Below, in pieces: positions 25,617 to 45,555 of a stretch of 45,555 nucleotides of DNA. The position numbers and the translations under genes were made by a program. The number at the start of each line of letters is the position of its first letter. Position 1 is the first letter of the stretch. The notes beneath the pieces are model-generated. The model saw only the letters and a list, made by a program, of their open reading frames with translations, was not told the origin of the DNA and ran no database searches. This DNA is from Nitrospira sp. (GTDB lineage: Bacteria; Nitrospirota; Nitrospiria; Nitrospirales; Nitrospiraceae), in contig JAHBWT010000027.1 of NCBI GenBank assembly GCA_019636815.1, positions 1 through 45,555 on the forward strand, read 5' to 3'.

Positions 25617-25904
25617 TTAGCACTTGCTGATTATCGAGAAGATAAGCTGCTCGACACGTGCCCGGCGTTCGACATGGGCGCGAGACATCGTAGGGGTGTG
25701 GCTGTGGTGCTGATCATTTTCTCCAGTGTGATGGTGGTCTTGTTCTCGTTCTGGCGATTGACCGGAGAGCTCTTGGTGTAGTTGCCAGAGCTTGACCTGG
25801 AGTTCTTCGAACGACTCCCCTTGGACTTCATACTCGGGATAGCCTTCCAGGTAGCCGCGCCAGCCGTTGTCGTCTTGCCAGAGGATGTATTTAGAGGAGC
25901 GCAT
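25617..25904 (-). CDS. Small HicB-like protein with His-rich tail (95 aa)
   Basis: 95 residues from ATG 25904; a TTG at 25907 precedes it directly. Residues about 5-48 form a HicB-like domain (KYILWQDDNGWRGYLEGYPE, then SFEELQVKLWQLHQELSG). The tail is rich in His, Glu and Arg (EREQDHHHTGENDQHHSHTP) and could bind metal, though that is speculative. It has no ribbon-helix-helix and no adjacent toxin. Its 5' end overlaps the open frame of the broken metE on the opposite strand. Confidence 0.6.
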   Translation of the reverse strand: MRSSKYILWQDDNGWRGYLEGYPEYEVQGESFEELQVKLWQLHQELSGQSPEREQDHHHTGENDQHHSHTPTMSRAHVERRARVEQLIFSIISKC

Positions 25905-27081
25905 CAAGGAAAGTATAGCCGGACATTTTATATACGCAAGGAAAGAACGGAAACAAAAATTAGGGGATTGCGATCAAAAACAACTCGAGAAAGCGGAAAG
26001 GTTAAGTCTGCACTATCTGCAGAAGGCGCTCGAATCATTTTGGTCGGCCAAGAGCACGGCGGTCGATCTGCACTACATCGCTGCCGAGCTGCGAATGCGA
26101 AATTGGTCTACCATGAAACAGGCTGGCATCGACCACATCCCGGTGGGGGATTTTTCGCTTTATGATCACATGCTGGACATGGCCGTGGCCGTCGGCGCCG
26201 TGCCGGAACGGTATCAAGGCGTACAGGATCCCCTCGTCAGATACTTCGCCATGGCTCGTGGTCTTCAGGACCGTGAGGCTGGCATCGATGTGCCAGCATT
26301 GGAGATGACGAAGTGGTTCGATACGAACTATCACTATATTGTTCCTGAGCTTGATCCTGACAAGCGGTTTGCGCTCAATGCGTCGAAACTCTTATCCGAA
26401 ATCGATGAAGCACGACGGGTCCTCGGCATCGATCCTCGACCAGTCATCCCCGGCCCCGTCACATTTCTGCTCCTGTCAAAAATGGCAGGTGGAGAGAAGG
26501 GCACTGCCACGCTCGATCTCCTCGACAACTTGCTTCCGGTTTATAAGCAGCTGCTCACCGGGCTGGCTAAGCGGCGGGTGGGATGGGTTCAACTCGACGA
26601 GCCCTGCCTCACCCTCGAGCTGGATGACTGTGCCAGATCTGCGTATCGGCTGGCTCTGGCACGTCTGACGACCCTCGAGGATCGCCCGCGCCTCATGCTG
26701 ACGACCTACTTCGGAGCGCTTCAGGACAACCTCGCCATCGCCGTCGGATCTCGTTGTGACGCCTTGCATGTCGATCTCGTGCGTGCCCCCGAACAACTCG
26801 ATGTGGTGCTCAAGGCGATTCGATCCCCGATGCGGCTCTCTCTTGGAATCGTCGACGGGCGAAATGTCTGGCGCACCGATCTCGATGCGGCCCATGCCAT
26901 CGTGCGGCGGGCCGTGCTGGCGTTGGGACGGGACTCTGTCATGATCGCGCCATCGTGCTCGTTCCTCCACGTGCCGGTTGACTTGGCCGGCGAACAGAAG
27001 ATCGACGAAGAACTCAAGAGCTGGCTGGCGTTCGCGGCACAAAAGCTTGACGAGCTTCGCAAGAGTACGACGCCTTCCTGA
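25867..27081 (+). pseudogene. metE: metE, N-terminal fragment (cobalamin-independent methionine synthase)
   Basis: The frame matches MetE from about nt 26017 onward: LQKALESFWSAKST, KQAGIDHIPVGDFSLYDHML, AEMTKWF-like LEMTKWFDTNYHYIVPEL, WVQLDEPCLTLEL, LHVDLVRAPE, GRNVWRTDLDAAH and the end [13 protein letters not shown]. The first 20 or so residues of the family (the LGFPRIG region) are not readable in this frame, so the 5' end is also degraded or replaced. The reading frame then runs out of MetE at about 27060 and stops at 27081. About 100 residues expected next (linker and first part of the catalytic barrel) are absent; the catalytic half resumes in another frame at 27066. An active enzyme is unlikely. 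Confidence 0.85.
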
Positions 27082-27977
27082 AGAAAGAGACTCGCCTGTG
27101 CGTCGAGAAACAGGAAGCGATCGGGCTCGATGTGCTCGTTCACGGGGAGTTTGAGCGTAACGATATGGTGGAGTACTTCGGCGAACAGCTTGATGGGTTT
27201 GCGTTTACCGAACACGGCTGGGTGCAAAGTTATGGATCGCGTTGCGTGAAACCACCGATCATTTTTGGAGACGTGTCGCGGCCGCGTGCCATGACCGTGG
27301 AATGGTCGACCTATGCCCAAACACTGACGAAGCGCCCGATGAAAGGTATGCTTACGGGGCCGGTGACCATCCTCCAGTGGTCGTTCGTCCGCGACGATCA
27401 ACTACGCCAGGAGACCTGTTTCCAGATCGCCCTGGCGCTTCGCGACGAGGTGATCGATTTGGAGCGGGCGGGCATCGCGATGATCCAGGTGGACGAGCCG
27501 GCGATTCGCGAAGGGCTTCCCCTTCGCCACCAGGAGTGGAAGACCTATCTGCGCTGGGCGGTGGACGCCTTCAAACTGGCCACGAGCGGGGTTCAGGATG
27601 AGGCCCAAATCCACACCCACATGTGTTATTCGGAGTTCGGGGACATCCTGGAGGCCATCGCTGAGATGGATGCCGACGTGATCTCCATTGAAACCTCGCG
27701 GTCAAAGATGGAGCTGCTGGCCGATTTCGCCCGCTTCCACTATCCGAACGCCATCGGGCCTGGCGTCTACGATATTCACTCGCCCCGTGTCCCGACCAAA
27801 CAGGAGATGACCAATCTTCTCCTCCGTGCCGGAGACGTTCTCTCCACTGAGCAGTTGTGGGTGAATCCCGATTGCGGGCTCAAGACGCGCGGATGGCCGG
27901 AAGTTGAGGCGGCACTGGTTAATATGGTTGAGGCGGCAAAATCGGCTCGACACCACTTTGCCGGTGTGACGTCATGA
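27066..27977 (+). pseudogene. metE: metE, C-terminal catalytic fragment
   Basis: The frame is open from about 27066 ([20 protein letters not shown]) to 27977, with a possible internal start at 27132. It covers the catalytic C-terminal barrel: [66 protein letters not shown]. The zinc ligands are intact: HTHMCYSEF (His, Cys), ISIETSRS (Glu) and [11 protein letters not shown] (Cys). The substrate-binding IGSFPQT region of the barrel start is missing. The preserved ligands suggest recent decay or a sequence/assembly gap. The stop overlaps the next gene's ATG (ATGA), so both once formed one transcription unit. Confidence 0.85.
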
Positions 27978-29167
27978 GCGTTTCGTCTCATGAGAAACAG
28001 CATCACGTTCAGATGAACAAGGGAATGATCGAAACGGATGTGGCCATTGTCGGCGCAGGCGGCGGGGGTGCCGTCTTAGCCCTGGCATTGGCAAAGCAAA
28101 ACATTCACACGGTGGTCGTGGATCAGGCAGTCAGTCCACCCAACAGTTTGCGGGGAGAAATTCTCCAACCGAACGGGCAGCATGTCCTTGACCGCCTGGG
28201 CGTCTTATCGTCATTGCCGGCCGATGCCACGCTGCCCGTGCGGCATTTTCATTTTTGCCGGGCCGGGGGCATGCGTCTCTGCAGCATCGATTATGGCGAC
28301 TTGCCGGCCCCGTACAACCGTGCCATCGTGACACTTCACTACGGAACCTCTTTCATAGGACTCATCCTCGAGGACGATCGGATTGTTGGATTATCGATGA
28401 AAGGCCGGGATGGCCCAGCCACGATCCGTGCGAAGGTTGTCGTCGGCGCCGACGGGGCGTTTTCGAAAGTGCGTGAAGCTCTCAAGATCCCCGTCGATCT
28501 GCATCTCTATCGTGATGGATATCTGGTTGCGTTACTGGAGTCGGACGATCAGATATCGGAATCGTTCTACTACGTTTTATACATGATTCCCAAAGATTTG
28601 ATGGAAGCCGTGAAGCAGCATGGTATCCCTGCGCTCCAGCAGACATGGAGCCGGATCGCACCGCCGTTTACCCGGCTCTTTCGGAATCTGCATGATTGGA
28701 GTCAGGTCGCGTATCTGCCGACGGGGCGGGTGCGCACGCCGAGATGGGTGGCAAATGGAGCCGTCCTGATCGGTGATGCCGCCCATGCCATGAATCCCCA
28801 TGCCTCGCAGGGGCGCATGCAGGCGATGGTCGATGCCATGGCGCTGTCCGATCTCTTGCCAAGTTGTCTCGCCGACCAGGACTATTCAGCCGCCAGATTG
28901 AGTGCCTTTGAACGTGCCAGGCGACCGCAAGTGACCATGCTGCAACACTTGACCGATCAACAAGTGTTTTATTGGAATACGGGGAATCCGGTGGTGGCCT
29001 TCATCCGCGATCGTGTGTTTCAGACACTCGATCGAAACGCACGGCTGCGTGATCAGGTCCTATCGACGACGGCGGGGTTGCGAACCGTGTCGCCATTTAG
29101 CGGGATCGATCGGGTGATTGCGGCGTGGTTATTTCCCGATATCCGGTCGCACGAACGATCTCAATAG
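27974..29167 (+). CDS. FAD-dependent monooxygenase/oxidoreductase (UbiH/PHBH fold)
   Basis: 397 residues. The ATG at 27974 overlaps the metE stop; an ATG at 28013 is an alternative. The dinucleotide-binding motif is [18 protein letters not shown], the GD motif is [16 protein letters not shown], and the second FAD motif is [20 protein letters not shown]. These mark the class A flavoprotein monooxygenases, which hydroxylate aromatic or quinone substrates or act as related reductases. Two stretches look short for the fold: after NRAIVTL, directly before HYGTSF, and after SESFYY, directly before VLYMIPKDL. This suggests small in-frame deletions. It may be non-functional. Substrate unknown. Confidence 0.8.
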
Positions 29168-29539: not shown

Positions 29540-30538
29540 TCATGATCGTACAAGCCTGTCATCCATCTGCATAGACAACATCTCACTCGTAGGGACATTG
29601 GCACGCACTGCCCGAAACATGCCAAAGCGACACAGCCCTGTCCCAAATGCCAGACGCATTAACAGGAACGTGGGCACTTCCCGCAATGATTTCATCAACC
29701 CAATCATGCCAAACCGAACAATCCCTGCTGGGCGGACGATTCCCTGCCAGATCGAATCGAGCCATGAGGGTACGGTTTCGGCAGTCCAATCCGCTGTGGT
29801 GACTTCACCCGCCACCAGTCCAGTTGCCTCCAGTAATTCTGAAAACTCTTCAATGCTGGCAAATGCCGGATGAGACCACTGATCCAGCAGTTGCCGCATC
29901 ACTGGCTTTTCCCAAACATTGAGTGGCACCTGGCGATCGTCCCGCTGATTCCAATCGGCAACAATCAGAATTCCCCCCGGTTTCAGAACGCGCAATAGCT
30001 CTCTCGCAAATTGTGCCTTATCGGGCATGTGCGGTCCTGCCTCGACCGACCAGACCACATCAAAACTGGCATCGGGGAACGAAAGCGCCAGCGCATCATC
30101 GACCTGAAAGCGGGCATTCACCTCCGGGGAGGTCAGTTCTTGAGCACGTCTGACTTGCTGAGGGCTGAGGGTGATTCCGGTGACAGCAAAGCCATAATCC
30201 CGCGCCAGAATGCGACTGCTGCCGCCAATGCCACAGCCTACATCTAAAACCGCCGTACCGGAAGGAAGCTTGTCCAACCCACCCCACTTCACCATTTCAT
30301 GCACAAAGTCCGACTTGGCTTTGCGAAAATCCTTTTTGCGAGGCGGAGAGCCATAGTGTCCCAGATGTATATGTTCGCCCCAGTAGAACTCTAGAATGCC
30401 GTCATTCGTCCAGTCATCATAGGAATTGGCGACAGAATCGGCAGACTGATATTTGCGGGGAAATAGCAAATACAGCGCTAATCCGATCAGTAGTAAGACC
30501 AGGAGAAGGACGATCGCCACTATGAAAATGTTCATCAT
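29540..30538 (-). CDS. Membrane-anchored methyltransferase, MPBQ/MSBQ methyltransferase-like
   Basis: 332 residues from ATG 30538 (or the adjacent ATG 30535), with no Shine-Dalgarno sequence. The frame is open to 30622, but that extension looks non-coding. An N-terminal transmembrane helix (about 3-25) is followed by YQSADSVANSYDDWTNDGIL, EFYWGEHIHLGHYG and SAM motif I VLDVGCGIGGSSRILARDYG. Then come VWSVEAGPHMPDKAQFAREL and NVWEKPVMRQLLDQWSHPAF. From memory this is strikingly close, almost residue for residue, to cyanobacterial 2-methyl-6-phytylbenzoquinol methyltransferase (Synechocystis sll0418), which methylates tocopherol and plastoquinone precursors. Horizontal transfer from a phototroph is likely. 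The substrate here may be another membrane quinone. Confidence 0.85.
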   Translation of the reverse strand: MMNIFIVAIVLLLVLLLIGLALYLLFPRKYQSADSVANSYDDWTNDGILEFYWGEHIHLGHYGSPPRKKDFRKAKSDFVHEMVKWGGLDKLPSGTAVLDVGCGIGGSSRILARDYGFAVTGITLSPQQVRRAQELTSPEVNARFQVDDALALSFPDASFDVVWSVEAGPHMPDKAQFARELLRVLKPGGILIVADWNQRDDRQVPLNVWEKPVMRQLLDQWSHPAFASIEEFSELLEATGLVAGEVTTADWTAETVPSWLDSIWQGIVRPAGIVRFGMIGLMKSLREVPTFLLMRLAFGTGLCRFGMFRAVRANVPTSEMLSMQMDDRLVRS

Positions 30539-30720: not shown

Positions 30721-30789
30721 CGCCCGATGAAGGGTATGCTCACGGGCCCGGTCACTATTCTCCAGTGGTCGTTCGTCCGCGACGATCAA
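30721..30789 (+). pseudogene. 69-bp relic of a second metE
   Basis: It aligns without gaps to 27333-27401 inside the metE C-terminal fragment, with 63 of 69 bases identical. All six differences fall at third codon positions and are synonymous, so both encode the 23 residues beginning [14 protein letters not shown]. No further metE sequence is seen on either side. The relic therefore derives from another metE copy that had been under purifying selection. It lies directly upstream of the promoter for the cobalamin-riboswitch transcript. Confidence 0.85.
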
Positions 30790-30816: not shown

Positions 30817-30843
30817 TTGACATCGATGCCATTCAACTATAGA
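30817..30843 (+). promoter_or_regulatory. Sigma-70-type promoter for the riboswitch-nrdAB transcript
   Basis: TTGACA (30817-30822) and TATAGA (30838-30843) with a 15-base spacer. The expected start is near 30850, just before the first riboswitch stem at 30853. The perfect -35 and the position make it credible; the spacer is slightly short. Confidence 0.6.
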
Positions 30844-30852
30844 CTCCCGCCC

Positions 30853-31036
30853 GTGCTGGTTCACTGATCTCATTTCAGTGAGCAAAAGGGAACCCGGTGC
30901 GAATCCGGGGCTGCCCCGCAGCGGTAAGCGAGAACGATTCCACAAGCAAGGCACTGGTCGTTCAGGCCGGGAAGCCGTGGAAGTTAGGAAGTCGGCGACA
31001 GCCGAAGCGCTCGCAAGCCCGAAGACCTGCCAGCAC
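30853..31036 (+). ncRNA. Cobalamin (B12) riboswitch
   Basis: Closing stem P1 pairs GTGCTGG (30853-30859) with CCAGCAC (31030-31036). A local hairpin TCACTGA/TCAGTGA follows (30861-30881). The conserved core AAAAGGGAACCCGGTG, GAATCCGGGGCTGCCCC and GCAGCGGTAA lies at about 30884-30928. The B12 box AAGCCCGAAGACCTGCC lies near the end (31016-31031). All match the adenosylcobalamin riboswitch consensus. It precedes nrdA by 270 bp, so B12 sufficiency is expected to reduce class I ribonucleotide reductase. Confidence 0.93.
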
Positions 31037-31258
31037 CCGGTGACGGGGAGACAACCGTAGCCGGTTCGACCTGGAAGCCTCGAGGGAGGACCGTAGGTCT
31101 GAGCTGGTTCGGAGTGTATTCCTTCCTTCCGTTCTTGGTTCACGACCAACTCTTCCCAACAGTGTGCTGTGATCGCCCGCGGGGGTGATGGTCGGTCCGA
31201 GCGCCACGCTGACTTTATCTTACGCGTCTCGGCTGGCAATGCCTTCTCGCGGGATCTC

Positions 31259-31305: not shown

Positions 31306-33801
31306 ATGGCCAGTGAACCAGCCGAGAGCATCGACACTTCTACCGTCGCGTCTGAAACGTTCCCTTCCGAAGACCATACGGCCGATGACGATTCCTCCCA
31401 ACATACGATGCAGGTGAGAAAACGCAACGGCTCGACGGAACCGGTCGACGTCATGAAGATCGTTCGCGCCGTGGATCGGTGTTGCGCCGGTCTCTCAGCC
31501 ATCGATCCGCTTCGAGTCGCGACCAAGACCATCAGCGGGCTCTATAACGGGGCGACGACGCGTGAGCTTGACCGGCTTTCGATTCAAACGGCCGCCGCCT
31601 TGATCATAGAAGAGCCTCAGTATGCGAAGCTTGCCGCGCGTTTGCTGGCGACCTACATCGACAAGGAGGTCGAGAACCAAGAAATCCACGCGTTCTCCCA
31701 GTCTATCGCTGCGGGGTATCGCCTGGGATTGGTGAATGATCGTCTTCAAGATTTCGTTGTGCAGAATAGCCGCAAGTTGAACGATGCGGTGGACTCGAAG
31801 CGAGACCAGGAGTTCGAGTATTTCGGCTTGCGCACGGTCTACGACCGCTATCTGCTCAAACATCCGGTAACCAGACAAGTCATTGAAACGCCCCAGCAGT
31901 TCTTTCTCCGCATCGCCTGTGCCCTTGCCGAGACTGTCATGGATGCGGTCGAACTCTATCGCCTGCTCTCATCGCTCGAGTATCTGCCGAGCTCACCGAC
32001 GCTCTTCAACGCTGGAACGCGGCATGAGCAACTGTCGAGCTGCTTCCTGCTCGATTCACCGGACGATCATCTGGCGCACATCTACCAACGGTATACAGAC
32101 GTCGCCATGCTGTCGAAATTCTCAGGTGGAATCGGGCTCGCTTACCATCGCGTCCGGTCACGCGGCTCTCTCATCGAAAGCACGAATGGGCATTCGAGCG
32201 GGATCATCCCTTGGCTGAAGACTCTCGATGCGTCGGTCGCCGCGGTCAATCAGGGAGGGAAACGCAAGGGTGCCTGCTGTGTCTACCTGGAACCGTGGCA
32301 CGCCGACATCGAGGAATTCCTGGAGCTGCGTAACAATACAGGTGACGAAGCCAGCCGGACGCACAACTTGAACCTGGCCAATTGGATTCCTGACCTCTTC
32401 ATGAGACGCGTGGAGGCGGACGGCGAGTGGAGCCTGTTCGATCCCAAGACAGTTCCTGAGCTGCCGGATCTCTACGGAGAGGAATTCGAACGGGCTTATG
32501 CGCAGGCGGAGCAGGCCGGCCTCGCGGCAAAAACCCTCAAGGCTCGTGAGCTGTACGCGCGGATGATGCGCACGCTCGCGCAGACCGGCAACGGCTGGAT
32601 GACGTTCAAGGACAAGTCCAACCGCGCCTGCAACCAAACCGCCTTGCCTGGGCGGACGGTCCATCTTTCCAACCTCTGTACCGAAATCCTCGAAGTGACA
32701 TCGCGGGACGAAACAGCTGTCTGCAACCTCGGCTCGATCAATCTCGCGCGCCACACGGTGATCGAATCCGATGGCACCGTATCGTTCGACTTTGACAAGC
32801 TCGCGCGAACCGTGCGGACCGCCGTTCATCAACTCGATCGGGTGATCGATCTCAACCACTATCCCCTCGCCGCGGCAAGAGCGTCGAATCACCGGTGGCG
32901 GCCGGTCGGCCTCGGACTGATGGGTCTTCAAGATTTATTCTTCCAGATGCACGTGCCCTTCGATGCCCCGGATGCGCGTGCTCTCTCGGCGCGGATCGTC
33001 GAGGATATCTACTTCCATGCGCTGTCGGTATCGGTGGACTTGGCGATCACGAAGGGACGCCATCCGGCATTCGAAGAAACGAGGGCCGCACGCGGCGAGC
33101 TGCAGTTCGACGCCTGGGGTATCGCACCGAAGGATCAGGAGCGATGGGAAACCATTCGGACACGGATCCTGGCGCACGGGCTGCGGAACGCACTGCTCGT
33201 GGCGATTGCGCCCACCGCGACGATCGCCTCGATCGCCGGGTGCTATGAATGTATCGAGCCTCAAGTCTCCAATCTGTTCAAGCGTGAAACCCTCTCCGGC
33301 GACTTTCTTCAAGTGAACCGCTATCTTGTGGCTGACCTCAAGAAACTTGGTCTCTGGACAGATGAGACGCGTGCACGCCTGAAAATCGCCGAGGGGTCGG
33401 TGCAGGGTCTTGATGAGCTGCCTGCCGATCTTTGCGCCATCTATAGGACCGTGTGGGAGATTCCCATGCGCTCCCTCATCGACATGGCAGCCGACCGTGG
33501 CGCGTTCATCGACCAGAGCCAATCGCTCAATCTGTTCATTGAAAATCCCAACATCGGACAATTGTCGAGCATGTACTTCTATGCATGGAAGAAGGGGTTG
33601 AAAACGACCTATTACCTGCGCTCTCGCCCTGCGACCCGCATCGCGAAAGCGACGGTCGATTCCGCCCCGCAGAGCGCGTCACAAAGCGGCGCCCGCGCCT
33701 CCGCCGATTCCGAATGGACACTCCCCCCGCCGCGCGAAGGAGGAACGGACGCCGTGACCTGTTCACTTGAAAATCCAGGGACCTGCGAGGCCTGCCAATG
33801 A
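31306..33801 (+). CDS. nrdA: Class I ribonucleoside-diphosphate reductase, alpha subunit
   Basis: 831 residues from ATG 31306, with GAGGAGG just upstream. An ATP-cone (about 33-125, beginning VRKRNGSTEPVD) gives dATP/ATP allosteric control of activity. The catalytic barrel has the redox cysteines in SSCFLLD (Cys codon 32041) and CNLGSINLA (Cys codon 32722), and the active-site NLCTEI (Cys codon 32677). The C-terminal tyrosine pair is in KKGLKTTYYLR. The tail ends in CEACQ, the thiol pair that re-reduces the active site. It converts NDPs to dNDPs using a radical from NrdB. It is controlled by the upstream B12 riboswitch, suggesting use when a B12-dependent class II enzyme cannot work; no class II gene lies in this window. 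Confidence 0.96.
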   Translation: MASEPAESIDTSTVASETFPSEDHTADDDSSQHTMQVRKRNGSTEPVDVMKIVRAVDRCCAGLSAIDPLRVATKTISGLYNGATTRELDRLSIQTAAALIIEEPQYAKLAARLLATYIDKEVENQEIHAFSQSIAAGYRLGLVNDRLQDFVVQNSRKLNDAVDSKRDQEFEYFGLRTVYDRYLLKHPVTRQVIETPQQFFLRIACALAETVMDAVELYRLLSSLEYLPSSPTLFNAGTRHEQLSSCFLLDSPDDHLAHIYQRYTDVAMLSKFSGGIGLAYHRVRSRGSLIESTNGHSSGIIPWLKTLDASVAAVNQGGKRKGACCVYLEPWHADIEEFLELRNNTGDEASRTHNLNLANWIPDLFMRRVEADGEWSLFDPKTVPELPDLYGEEFERAYAQAEQAGLAAKTLKARELYARMMRTLAQTGNGWMTFKDKSNRACNQTALPGRTVHLSNLCTEILEVTSRDETAVCNLGSINLARHTVIESDGTVSFDFDKLARTVRTAVHQLDRVIDLNHYPLAAARASNHRWRPVGLGLMGLQDLFFQMHVPFDAPDARALSARIVEDIYFHALSVSVDLAITKGRHPAFEETRAARGELQFDAWGIAPKDQERWETIRTRILAHGLRNALLVAIAPTATIASIAGCYECIEPQVSNLFKRETLSGDFLQVNRYLVADLKKLGLWTDETRARLKIAEGSVQGLDELPADLCAIYRTVWEIPMRSLIDMAADRGAFIDQSQSLNLFIENPNIGQLSSMYFYAWKKGLKTTYYLRSRPATRIAKATVDSAPQSASQSGARASADSEWTLPPPREGGTDAVTCSLENPGTCEACQ

Positions 33802-34820
33802 GCCATGTCCAACGGCCCGCGCGACTCCTTGATCCCGGCATGTGTCTGACGCTGCGTCCCATGGCCTACCCAGTGTTCTTCGAGATGTATCGTTTAGCTA
33901 TTAAGAATACCTGGACTGTGGAAGAGGTGGATTTCTCCACCGACGTGGGTGACCTACGCACGAAGATGAGCCCTGCCGAGCGTCATCTCGTGCAACGCCT
34001 CGTGGCCTTTTTCGCCACCGGCGACTCCATCGTGTCGAACAACCTCGTGCTCAACCTATACAAACATATCAACGCACCTGAAGCGCGGATGTACTTATCG
34101 CGCCAGCTCTATGAGGAAGCCCTGCATGTCCAGTTCTATTTGACGTTGCTCGATACTTACGTGCCGGACCCAGATGAACGGTTCTCGGCCTTCGCCGCTG
34201 TGGAAACCATTCCGTCAATCCGCCGGAAAGCGGACTTCTGTTTTACATGGATGGACTCCCTTCAACGGCTCGATGCGCTGGATTCGCGCGAAAAGCGAAG
34301 TCGGTTCTTGCACAATCTTGTATGCTTCGCCGCTTGTATCGAAGGGCTCTTCTTCTTTGCCGCGTTCGCGTATGTGTATTTCCTGCGCTCGCGCGGGCTG
34401 TTGCATGGACTTGCGAACGGGACCAATTGGGTGTTTCGCGACGAAAGCGCCCACATGGCGTTTGCCTTTGAAGTTATGAAGCAGGTGAGGCGCGAAGAGC
34501 CGGATCTGTTCGACAAGGCCTTCGAGGCCAACGTCATGCTGATGATGGACGACGCCGTCGCATGCGAGAGTATGTTTGCGGAGGATTTGCTCGGGGGCGG
34601 GGTGGCTGGACTCTCGCTGCGCGATATGCGGCAGTACCTGGAGTTTGTGGCGGACCAACGGCTGACGACTCTTGGTCTCCCGAGACGGTATGGGGCGAAG
34701 AATCCGTTCGCATTTATGGACCTCCAGGATGTCCAGGAAGTCGCCAACTTCTTCGAGCGGCGCGTATCCGCGTACCAGGTGGGGGTGACAGGAGAAGTCG
34801 CCTTTGACGCGGCATTTTGA
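33798..34820 (+). CDS. nrdB: Class I ribonucleoside-diphosphate reductase, beta subunit
   Basis: 340 residues; the ATG overlaps the nrdA stop (ATGA). The dimetal ligands inferred by pattern are Asp49 (FSTD), Glu107 and His110 (EEALH), Glu182 (CIEGL), and Glu216 and His219 (RDESAH). Position His110+4 is Tyr114 (HVQFY), the expected radical tyrosine. It is therefore not the Phe-substituted subclass Ic, although the surrounding sequence (GDSIVSNNLVLNLYKHI, NAPEARMYL) recalls the Chlamydia group. NrdB makes the radical delivered to NrdA. The C-terminus (GVTGEVAFDAAF) provides the tail that docks on alpha. Confidence 0.95.
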   Translation: MSHVQRPARLLDPGMCLTLRPMAYPVFFEMYRLAIKNTWTVEEVDFSTDVGDLRTKMSPAERHLVQRLVAFFATGDSIVSNNLVLNLYKHINAPEARMYLSRQLYEEALHVQFYLTLLDTYVPDPDERFSAFAAVETIPSIRRKADFCFTWMDSLQRLDALDSREKRSRFLHNLVCFAACIEGLFFFAAFAYVYFLRSRGLLHGLANGTNWVFRDESAHMAFAFEVMKQVRREEPDLFDKAFEANVMLMMDDAVACESMFAEDLLGGGVAGLSLRDMRQYLEFVADQRLTTLGLPRRYGAKNPFAFMDLQDVQEVANFFERRVSAYQVGVTGEVAFDAAF

Positions 34821-45370: not shown

Positions 45371-45555
45371 GGGGGCGACCGGTTTCGACGGGGATACTGA
45401 AGTCACTGTCGCATGTCGAGCTCTCGGGAACTCGTAAAAGTCCGAGAAAATGCAACTGCCAATCAAGAACTGGCACTCGCAGCCTAATTTAGGCTGAGAC
45501 GTCGTTCCATCTGAGGCCCGCGGGGGTGGAATGGCGTGATGCAGCGGGCTGGTCC
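45371..45555 (+). ncRNA. ssrA: Transfer-messenger RNA (tmRNA), 3' partial
   Basis: It begins with the tRNA-like 5' end GGGGGCGACCGGTTTCGACG, diagnostic of one-piece tmRNA. The resume codon is GCA at 45452, and the tag frame runs to TAA at 45485-45487, encoding ATANQELALAA. The ALAA end is the ClpXP/ClpAP degradation signal. The window stops inside the pseudoknot region, so the 3' tRNA-like half with CCA is outside. tmRNA with SmpB rescues stalled ribosomes. Confidence 0.95.

Follow-up and report, generated by a model that had tools for sequence, protein, structure and literature searches.

A cyanobacterial-type quinol methyltransferase of Nitrospira and its vitamin B12-linked gene neighbourhood

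The methyltransferase gene and its neighbours

The window analysed here, a stretch of 45,555 bases, forms an entire contig (C64) of a genome of 4.0 Mb that is 95% complete and belongs to Nitrospira, as the earlier note on this DNA had presumed at the level of the phylum. An intact open reading frame at 29540-30538 on the minus strand, which starts with ATG ATG, encodes a 332-residue quinol C-methyltransferase of the sll0418 type (MPBQ/MSBQ family) with an N-terminal membrane helix. On the plus strand at 27974-29167 lies a gene for a UbiH/PHBH-type FAD monooxygenase, which was likely transferred together with the methyltransferase gene. The other genes around them are also on the plus strand and are linked to vitamin B12. 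A cobalamin (B12) riboswitch (RF00174, 123 bits) is located at 30840-31048, upstream of nrdA (31306-33801), which encodes the large subunit of the B12-independent class I ribonucleotide reductase; nrdB, for the small subunit, follows at 33798-34820. Both genes were assigned from sequence and synteny. A degenerate metE, for the B12-independent methionine synthase, occupies 25867-27977 as two open reading frames in which profile positions of about 349-472 are missing. We also noticed a partial tmRNA gene at 45371-45555 that is cut by the end of the contig.

The hydrophobic N-terminal stretch of the methyltransferase, IFIVAIVLLLVLLLIGLALYLLF, agrees with the membrane helix described in the earlier note, and the SAM-binding motif was found to be DVGCGIGGSS. 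The protein matches the Pfam family Methyltransf_11 (7.5e-24). None of the curated NCBIfam models listed for it scored over the cut-off and the MpqE model (NF052510) is absent from the best 25 families listed. Its dN/dS of 0.10-0.24 indicates that the protein is under purifying selection. The gene is predicted to encode a SAM-dependent quinol ring C-methyltransferase of the cyanobacterial MPBQ/MSBQ (sll0418) family, and the identification made earlier is borne out by full-length homology and by placement among the cyanobacterial members. The N-terminal helix and the SAM motif are the same as in the Synechocystis sll0418 family, and identity to the nearest cyanobacterial copies reaches 84-88%. 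To describe the protein as matching Synechocystis sll0418 "almost exactly" was too strong, as the identity is about 73% to a close but uncertified version of the sll0418 sequence, which itself has a 96% match in a cyanobacterial chromosome of 3.7 Mb (G142). A total of 115 positions are invariant across the Nitrospira and cyanobacterial proteins, and comparison with the cyanobacterial copies gave no Nitrospira-specific residues that would tell substrates apart.

No Shine-Dalgarno-like stretch was found upstream of the start codon (TTCAGACATTCGAT), as had been noted before. Its absence had been taken to fit a cyanobacterial donor, which is a weak clue because many Nitrospira copies share this same upstream sequence. 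About 150 bp upstream travels with the gene, and the outer flanks differ.

Relatives and cyanobacterial origin

The closest homologues of the methyltransferase are found in many Nitrospira metagenome-assembled genomes (MAGs), with identities of 85-94%. Cyanobacterial proteins come next, led by Symploca, Oculatellaceae Prado106 and Phormidium LEGE 05292 (83-88%, with Symploca and Prado106 the best at 84-88%), and other cyanobacteria follow at about 67-83%. The gene was observed in 40 of 79 Nitrospira genomes, single-contig ones included, and no close copy occurs in 24 genomes that represent other families within the order. Plasmid matches are cyanobacterial only, and no match was obtained in viral contigs or phage records.

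In the phylogeny, the copies from Nitrospira group in a single clade (SH-aLRT 96-98) beside Symploca and Prado106, within a supported cyanobacterial group under midpoint rooting, and the cyanobacterial origin proposed in the earlier note therefore gains the support of the tree that it had called for. Distant methyltransferases of the Nitrospirales were used as an outgroup, where the branches were too long (AU p 0.81, with a poor free search) for the root to be fixed. The direction of transfer therefore rests on the midpoint root, the depth of diversity, the patchy distribution and GC3. The Symploca copies have a median identity of 82-85% to Nitrospira as against 77-79% to the median cyanobacterium. 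At 0.57, the GC3 of the methyltransferase gene is below that of seven other genes in the window (0.64-0.73). HIP1 sites (GCGATCGC), considered as a mark of the donor, are absent from the methyltransferase gene. The transfer almost certainly ran from cyanobacteria to Nitrospira, and it would have been a single gain from a filamentous cyanobacterium.

Two records deserve comment. A locus labelled as uncultured Nitrosospira (L028) carries a Nitrospira-type methyltransferase with glutathione peroxidase, and is probably mislabelled, misnamed or from a mixed bin. Prado106 (G059) has two copies (L026 and L104), one of them riboswitch-linked and close to Nitrospira and the other from another clade, which hints at two paralogous cyanobacterial lines or a mixed bin.

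Movement within Nitrospira, vitamin B12 and the radical-SAM gene

Between the window and a second Nitrospira genome (G017), dS was 0.20 for the methyltransferase and 0.24 for the FAD monooxygenase, as against 1.42 for mpqE, 1.27 for uvrA, 0.98 for nrdA, 0.83 for nrdB and 1.06 for metE. Values to relatives were 0.19-0.24 for the monooxygenase and 0.18-0.20 for the methyltransferase. These matched low values indicate that the two genes most likely moved together, and recently, between Nitrospira species. The UbiH-like enzyme is also the probable partner of the methyltransferase; the earlier note had suggested this of the nearby FAD enzyme, and the matched dS (0.24 and 0.20) supports it. A homologue of the monooxygenase is present in 57 of 59 Nitrospira genomes, with or without the radical-SAM gene described below, and is only 22% identical to the hydroxylase of the cyanobacterial operon.

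At about 20 loci, the methyltransferase gene has a glutathione peroxidase gene about 20 bp downstream, in the same orientation and with matching dS (for example at 7018-7500 of L013). This pairing forms the largest Nitrospira group and suggests a link to oxidative stress. Other arrangements were seen in single lineages. Six loci of one Nitrospira lineage (L011, L024, L027, L037, L175 and L177) have a CruF-like carotenoid gene and an epimerase gene upstream and nrdAB-metE downstream. In Nitrospira RSF6 (L036 5824-6885), the first approximately 60 codons of MpqE are joined in frame to methyltransferase residues 39-330, which represents either a fusion or a misjoin. Nitrospira RBC069 has a guanidine-I riboswitch near the methyltransferase gene on the opposite strand (L033 5022-5143), and Nitrospira UBC2 has a cobalamin riboswitch (L010 5511-5681) that is divergent to the methyltransferase gene and faces an NRPS-like gene.

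The gene that comes after mpqE in most genomes encodes a radical-SAM protein of about 541 residues. The best NCBIfam model for this protein is NF045585 (Slr0320) at 447 bits, which is below the cut-off of 775, and the protein has a radical-SAM domain, a weakly matching B12-binding domain and a CPYDCSFC motif. In Synechocystis, the slr0320 mutant shows slowed electron transfer from QA to QB, and Slr0320 has been suggested, without proof, to be a plastoquinone methylase (PMC8065906). The radical-SAM gene is missing from otherwise intact mpqE-usp junctions in five genomes (G007, G008, G149, G158 and G159), is replaced or broken in G017 and G147, and was also not found in G179 and G183.

In both G017 and G147, the methyltransferase gene and the genome's own mpqE are arranged tail to tail. 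The order in G017 is mpqE, methyltransferase (reverse), cobalamin riboswitch, nrdA, nrdB, metE, FAD monooxygenase, radical-SAM remnant and usp; the cluster was inserted into the radical-SAM gene and a remnant of 76 codons was left behind. In G149, the riboswitch is followed by nrdA, nrdB and metE, with the methyltransferase gene at the far end and tail to tail with metE. The nrdAB and metE genes encode standard B12-independent isozymes. A cobalamin riboswitch is thus placed ahead of nrdA in the window as well as in G017 and G149, and in two or three Nitrospira lineages the methyltransferase gene adjoins such a riboswitch-nrdAB-metE cluster and the radical-SAM gene has been lost. The metE of the window lacks about 125 middle codons and has an altered N-terminus, in contrast to the intact genes in the G017 and G149 clusters. 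A fragment of metE of 68 bp, which lies upstream of the methyltransferase gene at 30721-30788 on the plus strand and is 91% identical to the metE of the window, is common to the window, G017, L009 and L021 and represents the scar of an old rearrangement.

Within the window, no cobalamin riboswitch was found upstream of the methyltransferase gene on its own strand; the one that precedes nrdA is divergent from it. In cyanobacteria, such a riboswitch was found upstream of the methyltransferase gene on the same strand at 15 of 31 informative chromosomal loci, sometimes with metE between them. Among the ten cyanobacterial loci tested in the clade that holds the Nitrospira copies, seven have the upstream riboswitch. 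On two Picosynechococcus plasmids, the riboswitch is followed consecutively by metE, the methyltransferase gene and the gene for a UbiH-like hydroxylase. The methyltransferase gene therefore shares its neighbourhood with B12-riboswitch-controlled metE and nrdAB in cyanobacteria and in several Nitrospira, and the logic of replacing a B12 enzyme would be alike. A literature search, which had the methyl-plastoquinone pathway paper outside its scope, turned up no link between cobalamin riboswitches and the methylation of plastoquinone and no listing of a quinone methyltransferase among B12-riboswitch-controlled isozymes.

The methyltransferase gene was present in 8 of the 9 genomes with radical-SAM loss and in 32 of the 68 others (Fisher p 0.03, uncorrected for descent). 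This count includes G008, where the methyltransferase gene is a fragment at a contig end, and leaves out G155 and G157, which are poor assemblies with no mpqE match over the cut-off. A first tally over 59 genomes had placed the methyltransferase in 5 of the 10 genomes without a radical-SAM match and gave no apparent association. The association is thus a post-hoc result that was seen only after contig-end fragments and intact mpqE-usp junctions had been inspected. The independent losses number only two or three, too few for a phylogeny-corrected test, and we consider the tie between radical-SAM loss and the methyltransferase to be suggestive. One MAG of 90% completeness (G159) has neither gene, and a single-contig genome (G162) has mpqE and the radical-SAM gene and no methyltransferase. 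The exchange is not strict since the genome of the window and about 31 others carry both genes.

A possible role in methyl-plastoquinone synthesis

Methyl-plastoquinones are the only quinones of Nitrospira inopinata and N. moscoviensis (Bale 2025, PMC12324825). Of 59 genomes, 55 have an MpqE match that scores above the cut-off of the model, and the mpqE of the window's genome is located on contig C87. The earlier note had proposed a genome search for hpd and tocopherol cyclase; neither HPPD over the cut-off nor tocopherol cyclase was found in any of 39 genomes, that of the window included. The known quinone, the presence of mpqE and the lack of HPPD and cyclase together point to the native methyl-plastoquinone precursor, and we infer that a benzoquinol of this kind is most likely the substrate. 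Compared with the sll0418 family at large, the Nitrospira enzyme thus differs in its host, which is not phototrophic and has neither HPPD nor tocopherol cyclase, and probably in acting on a methyl-plastoquinone precursor. Of the two substrates offered in the earlier note, a native quinone is the better supported and a recently gained lipid is not favoured; the description "recently gained" does hold within Nitrospira, where the dS of the methyltransferase is 0.2 as against 0.8-1.4 for neighbouring and core genes. The methyltransferase and MpqE, which is UbiE-like, are both SAM-dependent methyltransferases and are adjacent in G017 and G147. However, they belong to different families, each genome has its own mpqE, and the window protein is not MpqE.

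The account that we favour, by a modest margin over even odds, is that Nitrospira acquired from cyanobacteria a B12-free sll0418-type enzyme which serves as an alternative to the radical-SAM/B12 protein in methyl-plastoquinone synthesis. The donor version was most likely part of a B12-independent gene set. In Nitrospira, the methyltransferase would most likely methylate the precursor ring without B12, probably with the neighbouring UbiH-like FAD enzyme as its partner, and the slr0320-like protein encoded beside mpqE would perform the same or an overlapping ring-methylation step with B12. The methyltransferase and Slr0320 (NF045585) would thus have a common role in quinone ring methylation, although they are unrelated in family and chemistry and Slr0320 is B12-dependent judging from its domains. 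We infer not only the substrate but also the ring position that is methylated and the identity of the radical-SAM protein as the methylase that is replaced. Several points weigh against this account: the two genes coexist in many genomes, independent losses are few, the riboswitch of the window faces away from the methyltransferase gene, the largest Nitrospira group has glutathione peroxidase as the paired gene instead, and the monooxygenase resembles the cyanobacterial operon hydroxylase at only 22% identity.

Another reading, which we consider unlikely but the most serious of the alternatives, is that the methyltransferase adds to native quinone methylation, tuning the number or proportion of ring methyl groups and the redox potential, with radical-SAM loss being unrelated. 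Differently methylated quinones do differ in potential (PMC12324825), and both genes occur together in about 32 genomes. However, radical-SAM loss falls in lineages that bear the methyltransferase, and in G017 the radical-SAM gene is broken by the cluster inserted into it. It is less probable still that the FAD monooxygenase, as an oxygen-dependent hydroxylase, replaces the oxygen-independent radical-SAM protein and that the methyltransferase accompanies it to carry out a different step. Certain B12 radical-SAM enzymes, BchE among them, introduce oxygen, and the monooxygenase is UbiH-like and moved together with the methyltransferase. Against this, its homologue occurs in 57 of the 59 genomes regardless of the radical-SAM gene, and in the G149 lineage, from which the radical-SAM gene has been lost, the methyltransferase is present with no monooxygenase beside it.

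That the enzyme makes an antioxidant chromanol or a tocopherol-like lipid is very improbable. The Synechocystis enzyme works in tocopherol synthesis (PMC5159609), and the same-strand pairing at the approximately 20 loci is with a gene of a lipid-peroxide enzyme family, but the lack of HPPD over the cut-off and of tocopherol cyclase in the 39 genomes speaks against it, and a role in tocopherol synthesis itself was rejected on these two counts. Cyanobacterial contamination of the MAG, which the earlier note wished to see checked and which the high identity to cyanobacterial proteins might suggest, has a negligible probability because the gene occurs in independent Nitrospira genomes (40 of 79, including single-contig ones) on contigs that carry Nitrospira genes.

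Returning to the replacement of a B12-dependent methylase, a broader form of this account, to which we give about even chances, holds that quinone ring methylation is carried out by interchangeable B12-dependent (slr0320-type) and B12-independent (sll0418-type) enzymes which are under cobalamin riboswitch control in cyanobacteria, and that the B12-free form was passed to the methyl-plastoquinone synthesis of Nitrospira. The earlier note was right at its core but understated the meaning of the gene, and the connection to vitamin B12 was missed. A single methyltransferase transfer is ordinary; this case is notable for its combination with B12-regulated gene sets in the two phyla and with the loss of the radical-SAM gene next to mpqE.

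Nitrospira are major nitrifiers, and methyl-plastoquinone is the sole quinone in the two species analysed. The ring-methylation steps of its synthesis are unsettled in the literature consulted, and there are now three concrete candidates for them: the methyltransferase, the FAD enzyme and the radical-SAM gene next to mpqE. If the account is true, a likely function would be available for Slr0320, which is needed for the growth of Synechocystis under high light, and the supply of vitamin B12 would have a direct influence on how respiratory quinones are made in nitrifiers and cyanobacteria. About half of nitrifying Nitrospira species have the cyanobacteria-derived enzyme, and the evidence suggests that it allows their unusual respiratory quinone to be made without vitamin B12.
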